From a virus: a DNA stretch of 43,517 nucleotides. The notes under the pieces were generated by a model. That model did not search any database. It was not told the DNA's origin and saw only the letters and a program-made list of their open reading frames with translations. The translations under genes were made by a program, and so were the position numbers. The stretch covers positions 1 through 43,517 of IMG/VR virus record IMGVR_UViG_3300045789_000886; one strand, 5' to 3'. Shown here one piece after another: positions 11,978 through 43,517 of this stretch. Every line of letters begins with the position of its first letter. Within the stretch, counting starts at the first letter, position 1.

Positions 11978-12202
11978 ATGAAAAACATCATTCTCTACGG
12001 TGCGCCTTTTTGCGCCAACTGTCAGGCAGTAAAACGCATATTAGCATCGAAAGATATTCCGTTCACATACGTGGATATAGCTGATGACGAGCAAGCCGCT
12101 GACCTATTAGCCAGCCAAGGTTTCTTAGGCCTTCCAGTTATGAAAGAAAACTCAAATACCTACGTCGGTTTAAAAGCCGTGGAGACTGCCAATGCTTACT
12201 AA
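11978..12202 (+). CDS. glutaredoxin/NrdH-like redoxin
   Basis: 74 aa. The redox site is FCANC (CxxC) at residues 13-16, after a first strand NIILYGAP, with the conserved cis-Pro loop LGLPV and a final helix. Because nrdA and nrdB follow within 1 kb, it probably supplies electrons to the phage ribonucleotide reductase; service as a polymerase clamp is possible but untested. It overlaps the next small gene by 11 bases. Confidence 0.88.
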   Translation: MKNIILYGAPFCANCQAVKRILASKDIPFTYVDIADDEQAADLLASQGFLGLPVMKENSNTYVGLKAVETANAY

Positions 12203-12389
12203 AAAATACGCTCTATATGACACAGAGACTGCGAAGTTTCTTAGCGCCGAAGGTGGTTTTGTATGGGCCTCAGAGTTCAAAGCAAAGACTAAGTACAACA
12301 ACTTTGCACGTTATGGCCTCTCAGAATCCAAACCATTCTCACAACAAAAGCGTGTTGTTCTACGTGAGGTACACATTAATGCAAGCTAA
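12192..12389 (+). CDS. hypothetical protein (65 aa)
   Basis: Begins inside the glutaredoxin gene (GGAG nine bases before the ATG) and ends inside the start of thyX (11-base overlap), so it is held in the operon by overlaps at both ends. Tyr/Phe- and Lys-rich with a C-terminal KRVVLREVHI strand. No family recognised. Confidence 0.55.
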   Translation: MLTKKYALYDTETAKFLSAEGGFVWASEFKAKTKYNNFARYGLSESKPFSQQKRVVLREVHINAS

Positions 12390-35913: not shown

Positions 35914-37710
35914 ATACAAGATGATAACTTAGAAGGTGTTATCAATGAACAGTCCTTTGAAACGCCCACAGAGGCACACACAGAGACGTTAGTAGAACAA
36001 GAACTAAGTGTAGGCGAGCAGGAAGACGCCGCGTACGAAAGCCTTATGCAAGACCTAAAGGACAACTTTAGCTTCTTCCTCTACATGATATGGAAACACC
36101 TTCAACTACCAGACCCCACAGCACTTCAATACAACATTGGCACCTACCTAGCGAATGGCCCAGAGCGTTCCATAATCGAAGCATTTCGAGGTTGCGGCAA
36201 ATCATTTGTCACCTCAGCGTTCGTCGTTTGGTTACTATTCCGTGACCCACAAATCAAGGTAATGGTTATATCAGCAACGAAGGAACGAGCCGATGCCTTC
36301 TCATCATTCACCAAGCGTCTAATCGCAGAAGTGGACTTTCTCAAACACCTCACACCCACAGCCGGACAACGCGATTCGCTTATTGCGTTTGACGTTGGGC
36401 CTGCAATTACTGACCACTCCCCTTCCTTAAAGTCTGCTTCTATTACAGGACAGATAACAGGTAGCCGTGCGAACGTAATCATTGCGGATGACATTGAGGT
36501 TCCAAGTAACTCATACACTCAAGATGCACGTGACAAACTGTCTGAACTGGTAAAAGAGTTCGACGCTATTATTAAACCATACGACTCACGCACAATGGCT
36601 GAGAAGCCCCGTATCATCTATCTTGGTACACCCCAGACCGAAATGTCTCTCTACAATACTCTTCGTGAACGTGGCTATCAGTGCCGTATATGGCCTCTTA
36701 TCTTCCCTAAAGAAGAAGAGTTGTCACATTACAAAGGCGCACTATCACCATACGTCACAGAACCCTTAGAGCAAGACCAAACGTTAGTCGGTTCCTCAAC
36801 AGAGCCTACGCGATTCGACATGGTGGACATAGAGAAACGCCGCTTGTCCTATGGCAAAGCAGGGTTCGCCTTACAGTTCATGCTAGACACTGCGTTATCT
36901 GATGGTAACAAGTACCCGCTCAAACTCAGCGACCTAGTTGTAATGGACGTCAGCCGTACCAAGGCACCTGTAGAATTCACAGTCATGCGTAACAAGGACA
37001 CATTGTTAGACGTTGAGTCCGTTGGCTTAGCTGGTGACAGATATTACCGACCATATTGGGTATCTAAGGAACGCCAAGAGTACACAGGAAAGGTAATGGT
37101 CATTGACCCGTCAGGTCGTGGTAGCGATGAAACTACGTGGTGCATAGCTTATATGTACGCAGGTAACGTATTCATACCCGAAGTTGGTGGCTCAAGTGAT
37201 GGCTACACAGACTCTGTGCTTACGAAGGTTGCTAAGATAGCGAAGTCACATAAGGTGAACGCTGTGCTTGTAGAGAGTAACTTTGGTGATGGCATGTTCT
37301 CACAGCTACTCAAACCTTACTTAACGAAGTACTACCCGTGCAGTATTGAAGAGGTACGCCAATCACAACAAAAAGAACGTCGCATTATCGACACCCTTGA
37401 ACCAGTGACTATGCAACATCGACTTATCATTGACCCAAAGGTAATCACGGATGACTTAGAACAGTGTGAGCAGGATTTGTCATACTCGTTGTTCTACCAA
37501 CTATCACGATTGACAGCAGACAGAGGCTCGCTTCGCCATGATGACAGACTAGATGCACTCGCTATGGCAGTGGCTTACTGGTTAGCTCAGATGGATGCAG
37601 ACGCCAGCAGCTTAGAAGCTATACGACGTGAGGAAGAGTTGGAAGAATTCTTAATAAAGTACATAACAGGCTTTGAAGTCAGCCCAGACTTATGGATGGA
37701 CGCTGGTTAA
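35914..37710 (+). CDS. terminase large subunit, T7 gp19-like
   Basis: 598 aa if started at ATA 35914, or 554 from ATG 36046 (T7 gp19 is 586). Walker A is FRGCGKS (Lys96 in the long form), Walker B IIADDIE (Asp192, Asp193, Glu195) and the coupling motif YLGTPQTEMS. The nuclease domain has VIDPSGRGSDETTW, VESNFGDGMF and HDDRLDAL. It packages DNA through the portal and cuts concatemers. The 44-residue extension before Met36046 is open, acidic and protein-like. The last 20 codons recur at 38.6 kb. Confidence 0.93.
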   Translation: MQDDNLEGVINEQSFETPTEAHTETLVEQELSVGEQEDAAYESLMQDLKDNFSFFLYMIWKHLQLPDPTALQYNIGTYLANGPERSIIEAFRGCGKSFVTSAFVVWLLFRDPQIKVMVISATKERADAFSSFTKRLIAEVDFLKHLTPTAGQRDSLIAFDVGPAITDHSPSLKSASITGQITGSRANVIIADDIEVPSNSYTQDARDKLSELVKEFDAIIKPYDSRTMAEKPRIIYLGTPQTEMSLYNTLRERGYQCRIWPLIFPKEEELSHYKGALSPYVTEPLEQDQTLVGSSTEPTRFDMVDIEKRRLSYGKAGFALQFMLDTALSDGNKYPLKLSDLVVMDVSRTKAPVEFTVMRNKDTLLDVESVGLAGDRYYRPYWVSKERQEYTGKVMVIDPSGRGSDETTWCIAYMYAGNVFIPEVGGSSDGYTDSVLTKVAKIAKSHKVNAVLVESNFGDGMFSQLLKPYLTKYYPCSIEEVRQSQQKERRIIDTLEPVTMQHRLIIDPKVITDDLEQCEQDLSYSLFYQLSRLTADRGSLRHDDRLDALAMAVAYWLAQMDADASSLEAIRREEELEEFLIKYITGFEVSPDLWMDAG

Positions 37711-37735
37711 TTAAAAGGCCCTAGTTTGGGCCTTT
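37651..37735 (+). repeat. direct repeat, copy 1: terL 3' end plus terminator
   Basis: The last ~60 bp of terL and its terminator, repeated at 38624-38708 in the same orientation with only a handful of changes. The two copies bracket the minus-strand SieB-like gene. Confidence 0.92.
37714..37735 (+). terminator. bidirectional terminator after terL
   Basis: Perfect eight-pair stem AAAGGCCC/GGGCCTTT (37714-37721 with 37728-37735), loop tagttt, with A and T flanks on both sides. It can end terL transcripts and, on the other strand, the SieB-like transcript. Confidence 0.85.
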
Positions 37736-37751
37736 ATTACATACATCTGCG

Positions 37752-38573
37752 TTAATAAGGTATGGTAAATTTACCGATTACTTCTTCTTTTAATTCTTGT
37801 TCAATGGCGTATCTGGTTGCACCATTTAAAGTGAATACCACTCCATCAAGAAGAGAACTGAATACCCCTACATATTTACTATACTCCAAGCCAGACAAAT
37901 CTGAATTACCGAAGCAGGTAGTCAGTATTCGTAAGTCTATGCCTTCCACGTCTACTTTTCCTCTTAGGAGGTCGAGCACAGGTTTGTATTGACTTGATTC
38001 TCTAAACTTATCAAAAGCTTTCTGTATTTCTACGTCATACATAGCCTGTACTTTACCAGATATTTCTTTACTCAGACTAACTACATTGTCATCATAAATT
38101 TCAGCGACAACATCAAGAAATCCTAGCTTTATTAACTCATACGTATCTCTCTTGCTTACTTTAGAGGTACTGCCATCAAGTAGAGCGTAGAGATATTCTT
38201 TTTCTATAGATGGTAAGTGTATGAACGTTTTATCAAAATTCTCATGCATCCTAGCTTTTTCTTTTATAGCTATTTGTGTGTTTTCTCGTTTTTTCGCCTC
38301 CACTTCTATTACCTTAGAAGCCTTGTAATATAAAACCTCCACTATTACTAAAAAACAGTAGAGGATTAGTATTGCTAATACCAAAGAAGAAAAGAGAAGT
38401 ACATAATCAGTAAAACTTAACAGTTGCCCAGTGTTCAACTTAACAACACTTACTAAAATTACCTTATTTAGAAAATAGGCGACGATGCTTAAAACTACAG
38501 CACAAGAGAAAATGAGTTTTTTAAACCCTAGTCTTCCCAGAAAAAACTCAGTAATACTTTTAATACCATCCAT
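37752..38573 (-). CDS. SieB-like superinfection exclusion membrane protein
   Basis: 273 aa from the ATG at 38573 (GGAG ten bases upstream; an ATG at 38612 adds 13 residues without a site). Two hydrophobic helices lie at about residues 17-40 and 52-78. A cytoplasmic part follows, with the SieB-like plan 'LPSIEKEYLYALLDGST...YELIKLGFLDV', comparable to the LT..EK..L..FI......L...GIL region of phage SieB proteins. SieB aborts infection by other phages. Assignment rests on architecture and short pattern similarity. The gene is AT-rich, reversed, and bracketed by the terL-end repeats. Confidence 0.6.
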   Translation of the reverse strand: MDGIKSITEFFLGRLGFKKLIFSCAVVLSIVAYFLNKVILVSVVKLNTGQLLSFTDYVLLFSSLVLAILILYCFLVIVEVLYYKASKVIEVEAKKRENTQIAIKEKARMHENFDKTFIHLPSIEKEYLYALLDGSTSKVSKRDTYELIKLGFLDVVAEIYDDNVVSLSKEISGKVQAMYDVEIQKAFDKFRESSQYKPVLDLLRGKVDVEGIDLRILTTCFGNSDLSGLEYSKYVGVFSSLLDGVVFTLNGATRYAIEQELKEEVIGKFTIPY

Positions 38574-38623
38574 ACACAAGGCACTCCGTGCTAAGTTGGC
38601 ACTTTGGCCCATAGCGTCAAAAA

Positions 38624-38708
38624 TTAATAAAAATACATAACAGGCTTCGAAGTCAGCCCAGACTTATGGATGGACGCTGGTTAATTAAAGGCCCTAGGAT
38701 GGGCCTTT
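38624..38708 (+). repeat. direct repeat, copy 2: remnant of a terL 3' end plus terminator
   Basis: Encodes the same final residues (KYITGFEVSPDLWMDAG, stop) but with a silent TTT to TTC change and different loop bases in the terminator. This fits a remnant from a related phage's terL better than a recent tandem copy. Confidence 0.92.
38687..38708 (+). terminator. second copy of the bidirectional terminator
   Basis: AAAGGCCC/GGGCCTTT (38687-38694 with 38701-38708), loop taggat. It lies just beyond the 3' end of the minus-strand GYQP gene and should insulate it from the SieB-like gene. Confidence 0.82.
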
Positions 38709-38718
38709 AATATGCTTA

Positions 38719-38922
38719 TTAGTCTTTTTTCGGAGGCGGGGCTACTGAGGAACTAGTTAAAGTATTACTTGGAGCTGTGCCTCCTGATGGCGCATTAATT
38801 GGTTGGTGCCCAGCTGTGGGCTGCTGTGCGGGTTGATATCCGTCCTGCACGACTGAGCGAGGCTGGTATCCCTTATCTACTGGCTGATAGCCATTATTAT
38901 TAAGGTCTTTATTTTTGCTCAT
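38719..38922 (-). CDS. GYQP-repeat small protein (partner of DUF6338-like gene)
   Basis: 67 aa. AGGAG six bases before the ATG on the minus strand. Low-complexity and hydrophilic, with four repeats of the form (D/K/A)GYQP or GHQP and a Pro/Ser/Thr tail ending PPPKKD; no membrane segment. It overlaps the end of the upstream membrane gene by 14 bases, so the two are one operon. I recall similar short YQP-repeat proteins next to DUF6338 genes in bacterial genomes and prophages (memory, not checked). Function unknown. Confidence 0.7.
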   Translation of the reverse strand: MSKNKDLNNNGYQPVDKGYQPRSVVQDGYQPAQQPTAGHQPINAPSGGTAPSNTLTSSSVAPPPKKD

Positions 38923-39526
38923 AGGTAGCTCCTAGTGGTGTTATTTTAGTAAATTCTATACAGGACATTTCACCTGACAGTATCAGCACGCCTGCCGTGT
39001 CTGCTTTGGCTCTCTCAAGTCCACCGTCCGCGTTAATTATCCATGACTGTTCTATATAAATTTGCTCAGGAACATGGCCGTCAGATGCAAATGATTTATC
39101 GAAAAAGTAACCACCTATGACTTTGCCATTCTTCAACGTTGCCCTTACCCAGTAACCTTGTCGCTGCCCGAATACGAAGTCCCATGGTTTCTGTATAGGG
39201 TGAGGTGCGTTGTTTTGAAACCATTCTGTCATTCTTATTTTTTTAAAGCCGAAAGCGATTAGCACAGGAAAACCCAATATCGTAAAAGCATAGAACAAAG
39301 CGTAAAAAAATGTACTGTGTTCTGCTAATTCATAATACTCAACAAAGTAAATAGGTGCTAATAAGAATGCGTAATTTATGGAACTGTAAGAAACAGCGTC
39401 TATAAGTTGGATGGAAGCTGTACTGCCGGACGAAGGGACAATCAGCTGGTAAGTTTTAATGCTTATAAAGCCCGGTATTACAAACGCAATAAATAAGACT
39501 AGTTTATCTATTTGCCATATATCCAT
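38909..39526 (-). CDS. DUF6338-like membrane protein
   Basis: 205 aa, AAGGTG five bases before the ATG. Three or so hydrophobic helices occupy residues 8-30, 48-63 and 72-95. A soluble domain follows, with PIQKPWDFVFGQRQGYWVRATLKNGKVIGGYFFDKSFASDG and further strands, a small beta-barrel reminiscent of the DUF6338 family. Predicted inner-membrane protein with a cytosolic sensor-like domain. With the GYQP partner it forms a reversed accessory module next to the SieB-like gene; a defence or exclusion role is inference from context. Confidence 0.65.
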   Translation of the reverse strand: MDIWQIDKLVLFIAFVIPGFISIKTYQLIVPSSGSTASIQLIDAVSYSSINYAFLLAPIYFVEYYELAEHSTFFYALFYAFTILGFPVLIAFGFKKIRMTEWFQNNAPHPIQKPWDFVFGQRQGYWVRATLKNGKVIGGYFFDKSFASDGHVPEQIYIEQSWIINADGGLERAKADTAGVLILSGEMSCIEFTKITPLGATYEQK

Positions 39527-39601
39527 TAAGACACCTTAAAATCCTTATGTAATACACTCAGTTTACTAAGAAAACTTAGGCGTTGACAACTGGTTACTTG
39601 A

Positions 39602-39620
39602 TAACCCACACCCTAGGATA
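39602..39620 (+). promoter_or_regulatory. phage RNA polymerase promoter (copy f), end region
   Basis: TAACCCACACCCTAGGATA, reading rightward into non-coding repeats with no late gene after it. This matches the position of the T7 promoters near the genome ends (phiOR/phiOL), used for replication start or packaging-linked transcription. Confidence 0.75.
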
Positions 39621-39635
39621 AACCCTAAGCCAACA

Positions 39636-39839
39636 CTAGGTATACTCTTAGTCAGTACACTAGGTCTACATTAGGTACACTTTAGGTCTACTCAAGGTAA
39701 TGTATGTATATGATATATGTACTAAGACTAAGAGTAGACCTACAGTCCTTCACTTAGGTAACGTTGACTCATCCTTAGTGGTCTATATGCCCTCCTTCAT
39801 GCTACGTATTCAGTCAAGCATATCCCACGTTAGGTATAC
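39636..39839 (+). repeat. dispersed TAGGTNNAC iterons
   Basis: YTAGGTNNAC at 39636, 39660, 39671, 39682 and 39830, a shortened copy at 39754, and an inverted GTAGACCTA at 39734. Part of the same pattern follows promoter d at 17585-17609. Confidence 0.75.
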
Positions 39840-40848: not shown

Positions 40849-41355
40849 ATGAATATTACATTTTACTCATTAAGCGATTACAACAACGGCACATTGATTT
40901 CTAAGACGTTTGAGATTGACGACTACGAAACATACGAAGAGTTTGACCAAGCGCGTACAGCATGGTTAGACGAGCTAACAGAGGCACTAGATGACGGCGA
41001 GTTACGAGAGGAATACATCGTAGCAGACTCAGACGAAATACCTGATGAATACGTTGGGGAATGGACACTGAGCGCCGAACTATGGGATTTCTTAGACGTT
41101 GTAAATAGCGGCTTAGATGTCGAGGTTGTCAAGGCTGGCGTCGATTATGGGATTCCACTGGACAAGATAGAAGACGCATATTTTGGAGAGTTTGAAAATG
41201 ATGAGGAACTGGCGAGAGAATGTCTTGAGAACAGCGGCCTACTAGAAGACGTACCAGCCACGATAGCTAACTACTTTGATTATGAAGCGTATGGCCGTGA
41301 CCTATCACATGACTTTTCACAGAGTGGTAATTATTACTTTCATAGCTCTTTTTAA
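40849..41355 (+). CDS. ardA: ArdA-like antirestriction protein
   Basis: 168 aa, AAGGG upstream of ATG. It opens FYSLSDYNNGTLISKTFEID, the ArdA start pattern (SLSDYN.G.L.G.W). The rest is very acidic, with the later ANYFDYEAYGRDLSHDF matching the ArdA C-terminal motif (YFDYEA.ARDL). ArdA mimics DNA to block type I restriction-modification enzymes. It is the first early gene, the slot T7 gives to the unrelated DNA mimic Ocr (gp0.3). Confidence 0.88.
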   Translation: MNITFYSLSDYNNGTLISKTFEIDDYETYEEFDQARTAWLDELTEALDDGELREEYIVADSDEIPDEYVGEWTLSAELWDFLDVVNSGLDVEVVKAGVDYGIPLDKIEDAYFGEFENDEELARECLENSGLLEDVPATIANYFDYEAYGRDLSHDFSQSGNYYFHSSF

Positions 41356-42473: not shown

Positions 42474-43517
42474 GTGAATATTGATTATAGCGCAATCAAA
42501 GAAACACCAAAGGGATTTCGTGTCGAGAAGAAGTTAAAAGGAATGCCAAGGCTAAGAAGAACCTTTGACACCTTTGATGAGGCCGTTAAGGCGCTTGCTG
42601 GGTATTACAAAGGCGACGACAGCACAACGCGAGAAGGTCGTATGAACTACGAGCTTACATGGCAGCTTCTTTTCCGTAGCACCTGTAATGAACGGTGGAG
42701 AGTACAAGGCGAGGCGCAGAGGCTTAATGCAGAGCGTCTTATACGTGATTACTTAGGGGCAACTAAACGAGTCGCTGAGTTTGACCAACGCGCAGCAGAT
42801 GCTTTGACAGACCGCCTATTCAAAGATAAGCCGAGTACCAGCACTGTGAACAGGTATCAATCAGCGTTACGCACTATGTTAAAGGTAGGTGATGAAAAAG
42901 GACTGATTAACTGGAAAGTACCACGCCTCATGTATCACAAGGTTCACGCTGAACGCATCATGTTTTACGACTATGACACAGAGTCAAAGATTGAAGGCAT
43001 TATGCGCCAAATAGGTGAACATGAAATGGCTGACCTCTTCATTCTATTAGTCGAAACAGGCATGAGAACGGCCGAGGGTGCTTTCCTTTCACGTCAAAAC
43101 GTACACTTAGAACACCGACGTATAAACGTATGGGCTCATGACAACAAGACAGGCGTGGCAAGGGCCATACCGTTAACCCTAAGAGCCTATAACGTACTTG
43201 TACGACGAACTGAGTGTACGACGGGCGATTCTGTGTTTCCAACTGCGTCACGCTCTAAGCTACGCTCAGTTTGGGAGAATGTCAGACGAGCATTAAACAA
43301 CTACGACCCCGCTTTTCTGTGGTATTGCACACGACACACATGTGCTACTCGTTTGGTGCAGGCAGGCGTAGATTTTAAGACCGTGCAACAGATTCTTGGT
43401 CATAAACGTATCGAAACAACCATGCGTTACATACAAAGCGCAGACGGAATGTACGGCAGTGCAATATCAGCACTGGACAAAGCAAGAGCAGCACATTTAG
43501 AATGCACCTCCGAATAA
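42474..43517 (+). CDS. int: tyrosine recombinase integrase
   Basis: 347 aa from a GTG start with AGGAGG seven bases upstream. An N-terminal arm-binding part and a core-binding domain (about residues 60-150) precede the catalytic domain. Catalytic residues: Arg198 in TGMRTAEG, Arg287 in YCTRHTCATRL, His310 in LGHKRIETT and nucleophile Tyr319 in MRYIQ. The usual first box II His (H-x-x-R) is Tyr284. The protein ends at the last base of the window. It should insert the genome at a host attachment site not visible here. Confidence 0.93.
   Translation: MNIDYSAIKETPKGFRVEKKLKGMPRLRRTFDTFDEAVKALAGYYKGDDSTTREGRMNYELTWQLLFRSTCNERWRVQGEAQRLNAERLIRDYLGATKRVAEFDQRAADALTDRLFKDKPSTSTVNRYQSALRTMLKVGDEKGLINWKVPRLMYHKVHAERIMFYDYDTESKIEGIMRQIGEHEMADLFILLVETGMRTAEGAFLSRQNVHLEHRRINVWAHDNKTGVARAIPLTLRAYNVLVRRTECTTGDSVFPTASRSKLRSVWENVRRALNNYDPAFLWYCTRHTCATRLVQAGVDFKTVQQILGHKRIETTMRYIQSADGMYGSAISALDKARAAHLECTSE

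Follow-up and report, generated by a model that had tools for sequence, protein, structure and literature searches.

Reversed cargo genes and a second terL tail next to terL in an integrase-bearing T7-like phage

Gene layout next to terL and the repeated terL tail

The window, that is, the whole 43,517-base virus record analysed here, comes from a T7-like phage with an integrase. It opens with a phage RNA polymerase gene (1-2619) and contains, towards its other end, genes for an ArdA-like protein (40849-41355) and a tyrosine integrase (42474-43517). The TerL protein shares 50-57% identity with annotated T7-like terminases (tblastn). Both ends of the record coincide with gene borders, which suggests that it represents a trimmed prophage. 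A second contig, L002 (IMGVR 3300046534), has an arrangement identical to that of the window. No complete tRNA was detected by ARAGORN beside the integrase in the window or in the related contig L004; just past the L004 integrase (12030-12210), a stretch resembling by eye the 3′ part of a tRNA was seen, possibly an attachment-site junction. The following features were identified at and behind terL:

36046-37710, + strand: terL, terminase large subunit, 554 aa (ORF list, tblastn); left border of the slot
37651-37739, + strand: copy 1 of the direct repeat, formed by the final ~60 bp of terL together with the hairpin that follows
37714-37737, no strand: hairpin T1 with an 8-bp stem, between the convergent terL and 286-aa genes (folding)
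37752-38612, − strand: cassette 1, a reversed gene of 286 aa with two N-terminal hydrophobic segments, no family found
38624-38712, + strand: copy 2, a terL tail (non-coding scar) and hairpin, 92% identical to copy 1
38684-38711, no strand: hairpin T2 with an 11-bp stem and an altered loop (folding)
38719-38922, − strand: cassette 2b, a reversed 67-aa gene with GYQP repeats (ORF list)
38909-39526, − strand: cassette 2a, a reversed DUF6338 gene of 205 aa (Pfam PF19865, 6.8e-32)
39582-39625, no strand: right border, the sequence found directly behind the terL end in L004, where the site is empty (BLAST; L004 and L003 sequences)

An earlier note on this DNA had described the 3′ end of terL and its terminator as duplicated in direct orientation, and alignment of the repeat bore this out. 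The two copies (37651-37739 and 38624-38712) agree at 92.2% over 90 aligned positions when gaps are allowed, while the ungapped pair (37656-37737 and 38630-38711) shows 85% identity at a spacing of 974. Smith-Waterman comparison of the terL tail with its own downstream region, computed on L002, whose sequence here does not differ from that of the window, gave a score of 138, while control segments taken from this terL reached 25 at most, so that a chance origin of the repeat is excluded. In the coding part of the tail (TACATAACAGG...GGTTAA), the sole difference between the copies is a silent TTT to TTC change. The copies do not differ in the terminator stem (AAAGGCCC/GGGCCTTT), and the 6-nt loop changes from TAGTTT in copy 1 to TAGGAT in copy 2, with one further indel and one change in the flank; the silent change and the altered loop had both been pointed out before and were both seen in the aligned copies. 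Folding of T1 gave a z score of about -2.9 on either strand, and T1 and T2 both fold well on either strand, so that each could stop transcripts arriving from both sides.

The proposal that copy 2 was derived from the terL of a related phage did not find the same backing. Searches for relatives yielded neither a donor terL for copy 2 nor a single-cassette parent, and the coding parts of the two copies are one silent change apart, so that the source would be either the phage itself or one nearly identical to it. In the available data, which include no closely related third terL for comparison, copy 2 is closest to copy 1, an outcome that the earlier note had listed, for copies with only random changes, as speaking against its reading. 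The overall likeness of 92%, the single change in the coding part and the lack of a donor would also agree with self-duplication, in which the phage copied its own terL tail and terminator by slippage or unequal concatemer exchange and the 286-aa gene came to lie between the copies by insertion or capture, without involvement of a second phage. Two events, duplication and then insertion, would be needed for this outcome.

Since the record is derived from a metagenome and a repeat is a place where strains could be misjoined, an assembly artefact joining two phage strains in one contig was considered as well. We regard it as very improbable: the junctions are exactly alike in the separate contig L002, although that contig may stem from the same sample or a related one, the window continues normally into the early region and the integrase, and common read lengths exceed the length of the repeat.

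Empty sites in close relatives and contents of the slot

The closest relatives of the window phage, L004 (TerL 84% identical) and L003 (78%), contain neither the insert nor a second tail. In both, the TTGATAnCCCACACCCTAG-type sequence follows the terL stop codon almost immediately, while in the window it is found at about 39600, past all three reversed genes. Window positions 39582-39670 align to L004 7664-7748, directly at the end of the L004 terL (BLAST), and the whole block from 37711 to ~39588 is therefore absent there; it is likewise missing from L003, and this block defines the extent of the slot in the window. The earlier note was right to place a reversed gene between the two copies, but it drew the right-hand limit at 38708, whereas compared with the relatives the insert runs on to ~39588, taking in a further two reversed genes. 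L003 and L004 are relatives in which one terL tail is present and the insert is missing, as had been anticipated for a recombination-driven slot, and the contrary possibility, the same arrangement in all relatives, does not hold, as both are empty. Searches with the TerL C-terminus or the integrase returned no relatives of the window phage beyond L002-L004. With one occupied example in this lineage (the window and the identical L002), only the difference between occupied and empty is visible in it, and not the turnover of cargo.

No terminator-like site was found near terL in L004; in L003, a single hairpin is present, about 90 bp past terL. The heptamer CTGGTTA is present at 37703, 38677 and 39590, that is, at both terL-tail ends and at the right border, and also at the empty site of L004; it may be micro-homology used in joining, for which 7 bp are weak evidence.

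The slot contents resemble phage morons (in the sense used for temperate phage DLP4, PMC6469090) in being extra genes absent from close relatives (L004, L003) at a clean junction, in having their own hairpin and in deviating base composition: GC content is 0.351 for the 286-aa ORF and 0.392 for the second low-GC gene of the slot, compared with 0.454 for the whole phage, while the 67-aa gene is unremarkable at 0.48. They differ from morons in that a core-gene fragment separates two of them, and their promoters are putative. Upstream of the 286-aa gene, no good match to a sigma-70 promoter was found. A promoter-like match (9/12) lies upstream of DUF6338 at 39589-39560, in a region where the number of such matches equals, and does not exceed, the chance expectation.

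Cassette 1 is, as described previously, an AT-rich reversed gene between the tail copies (GC 0.351, 37752-38612 on the − strand); judged by eye, translation may start at a later ATG, at about 38573. The gene had also been called SieB-like, which was sustained only for the N-terminal pair of hydrophobic segments and not by homology. Hydropathy of the 286-aa protein peaks above 1.6 twice in the first 100 residues (windows starting at 28-41 and 63-81), and in hydropathy only it shares a pair of N-terminal segments with SieB (PF14163; lambda, P22), which is likewise an accessory prophage membrane protein. SieB is 184 aa long, however, and the 286-aa protein gave no match to PF14163 at E values up to 1 in a Pfam search in which the positive control, lambda SieB, scored 1e-29. 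Lambda SieB aligned to it by BLASTP with 24% identity over 62 residues (E 0.03 for a single comparison), and membership in the SieB family was dropped in view of this weak match and the missing Pfam match. Homologues were absent from phages, plasmids and IMG/VR, with the exception of the identical contig L002, and from 369 genomes of one class sample, where two weak hits were rejected because they overlap reading frames resembling LemA and TrpS. A structure model of the protein was too poor for a structure search and too weak for the question of the segments. A role in superinfection exclusion, based on position and architecture, is a guess.

The 67-aa ORF of cassette 2 has a weak match to a 67-aa ORF behind DUF6338 in the IMG/VR contig L319 (5902-6784), where DUF6338 is followed by this small GYxP-rich protein, and a Klebsiella phage record has a 132-bp gene behind DUF6338. 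DUF6338 together with a small GYxP-repeat protein therefore appears to be a two-gene mobile module travelling among unrelated elements.

Cargo turnover and terL-tail remnants in a second clade

Scanning of GTDB genomes with TerL identified three Rhodanobacter prophages (L094, L154 and L162), each with a different reversed cargo directly behind terL and ahead of a conserved lysozyme gene. A further scan of IMG/VR with the L162 TerL produced about 40 related loci, and the 35 having both borders (terL and lysozyme) were counted. Between terL and lysozyme, 1-3 genes were present in 35/35 loci, all of them reversed, amounting to 22 distinct slot contents. In four of these phages (L162, L169, L170 and L174), the last 1200 bases of terL are ~96% identical and the start of the lysozyme gene ~90%, whereas the slots are unrelated. 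The same position is thus occupied by different cargo in related phages, as in a hotspot, which shows rapid turnover of reversed cargo adjoining terL in T7-like prophages. On the right, the lineage of the window and the Rhodanobacter-type clade have different conserved genes, and 'same slot' in the two clades therefore refers only to the position relative to terL.

Among the cargo proteins of this clade were an AbiU2-type HEPN protein (2.1e-16), an FRG-domain protein (1.5e-19) matching the PADLOC defence candidate PDC-S15 (1.9e-36) and a sub-threshold match to DUF3800; most of the proteins tested had no known domain. Small unnamed reversed families recur in the L162-L201 slots (e.g. L190, L186, L192 and L175), including one of 87-106 aa ('VEDAM') and one of 111-122 aa ('YCxxHPL'), and an RHS-like protein was noticed by eye among the Rhodanobacter-type slot genes. 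A T7-like prophage of Zooshikella ganghwensis (L084, 4929-5717) also has a reversed gene directly behind terL, resembling by eye that of a periplasmic solute-binding protein.

In L162 and the near-identical contigs L165-168, the order is terL, a reversed 208-aa gene, a terL-tail remnant and a reversed 111-aa gene. The L162 remnant comprises 41 nt of the terL tail and ends at the stop codon; tail scores in this group were 47-49, and the L162 remnant compared with all tails of the clade scored 49, with controls of at most 32 in either case. The family of the 111-aa gene is found alone directly behind terL in L169, L172, L185 and L189, where its stop codon is read from the terL end in antisense, at position -6, and the L162 gene has its stop codon at the same place inside the remnant. 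In this clade, the supply of a stop codon by the terL end is a concrete reason for a cassette to carry a terL tail. In L190, a 12-bp match to the terL tail, with the FRG stop codon inside it, is situated exactly at the junction of two cargo genes; apart from the L162-type junction, no place in the slots scored higher, and the match is suggestive of a further remnant. Most multi-gene slots of the clade (L175, L183) had no terL-tail remnants, and the tail is therefore not required for stacking.

The earlier note had anticipated different reversed genes between two tails; this clade has different reversed genes directly behind terL, and one group within it has the order gene, terL tail, gene. The wider proposal of a recombination-driven cargo slot stands in part: the empty relatives and the varied reversed genes of the second clade agree with it, while gain and loss through the tails themselves is something we infer.

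These comparisons also bear on whether the tail has any part in cargo exchange. Reversed genes could have piled up behind terL by independent insertions, with the tail copy as an accidental passenger that contributes nothing to the acquisition or loss of cargo. Such a history would fit the multi-gene slots of the second clade, among which only the L162 group has a clear remnant and L183 and L175 have none, and also the 225 deduplicated T7-like loci, only the lineage of the window and the L162 group being clearly above controls. We nevertheless consider it unlikely, since two separate clades agree in the position of the remnant between two cargo genes, cargo stop codons fall inside it in L162 and L190, and both hairpin stems of the window are intact though the loop has changed. 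Self-duplication of the tail, raised above, appears rather doubtful: the second clade presents a gene, a terL tail and another gene whose family elsewhere stands alone behind terL, an order that a join of two phages would produce in one step.

Some other tail matches were discarded. L151 (9692-11650, Rhodobacteraceae IMCC1909) has a 531-bp copy of the terL tail, 79% identical, downstream of an intact terL; it was set aside, as the repeat extends to the small reversed gene that follows the tail, and it probably represents two prophage ends in tandem, or remnant ends. Small matches in L008, L076, L099, L133 and L257 were near the control range or were repeats outside the terL coding sequence.

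Proposed stacking of cassettes next to terL

Taken with moderate confidence, the preferred reading is that the slot adjoining terL holds two stacked moron cassettes and that the second tail was left as a scar by the join of two phages. The stretch from terL to the early region would be an accessory-gene (moron) slot with two cassettes facing terL, and a cassette that ends in the 3′ end of terL, or shares a terminator with it, would have the terL tail as its natural left flank. One phage (A) would have had terL, T1 and the 286-aa gene, and the other (B), near-identical to A and already carrying cassette 2, would have had terL, T2, the 67-aa gene and DUF6338. A single illegitimate crossover would have joined the upstream side of the cargo of A to the last ~60 terL bases of B, so that the full terL was kept on the left and the second tail with its terminator became a scar between the cassettes. 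This scar would lie between two units, both directed towards terL and each with a hairpin of its own at the end. The ~88 bp direct repeat is a possible handle for deletion of cassette 1; since the residues encoded by the two tails are the same, the TerL protein would not be affected by such a loss. Probably the prophage expresses this cargo to protect its host or to exclude superinfecting phages.

Cargo hotspots located beside cos have been described in P2-like phages and P4 satellites, with different accessory and defence genes in each phage, and the authors speculate that genome ends feed recombination (2022, PMC9122126). The terL-adjacent slot is similar in having a fixed address near a packaging or genome end and varying accessory or defence cargo. 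It differs in belonging to T7-like phages, in being bordered by the 3′ end of terL and not by cos, in cargo that faces terL (22/22 contents in the second clade) and in the terL-tail scars between cassettes. Defence is indicated here by family matches only (AbiU2 and FRG), and the 286-aa gene of the window has none.

T7-like phages have long been regarded as strictly lytic. An integrase has been reported in the temperate T7-like phages LUZ100 and Pasto (PMC10134795), which resemble the window in their T7-like gene order, terL being situated near the right end, and differ from it in that neither record annotates a reversed gene after terL. The right terminal repeat of LUZ100 begins about 400 bases past terL, and by analogy the slot may lie similarly close to the genome end. 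Open-licence papers on T7-like prophages, morons, terminase-adjacent hotspots and partial duplications contained no description of a terL-adjacent cargo slot in T7-like phages. As a kind, the phage cargo hotspot is already known; the unusual part is the core-gene scar, present in two clades.

The slot provides a fixed and easily searched address, directly after terL on the opposite strand, at which candidate superinfection-exclusion and defence genes can be collected from temperate T7-like prophages; essentially one scan has so far yielded the 22 distinct contents, most of them without a known domain. The terL-tail scars offer physical evidence of how cassettes are stacked, for which mosaic comparisons are usually the only source. 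We put forward, tentatively and as the less probable outcome, that the 3′ end of terL may act as a portable border in temperate T7-like phages, where reversed cassettes carrying a terL tail, with a terminator or stop codon within it, may stack by one crossover and pop out between tails with TerL unaltered. If so, these phages would possess a self-repairing cargo slot beside the packaging end of the genome.
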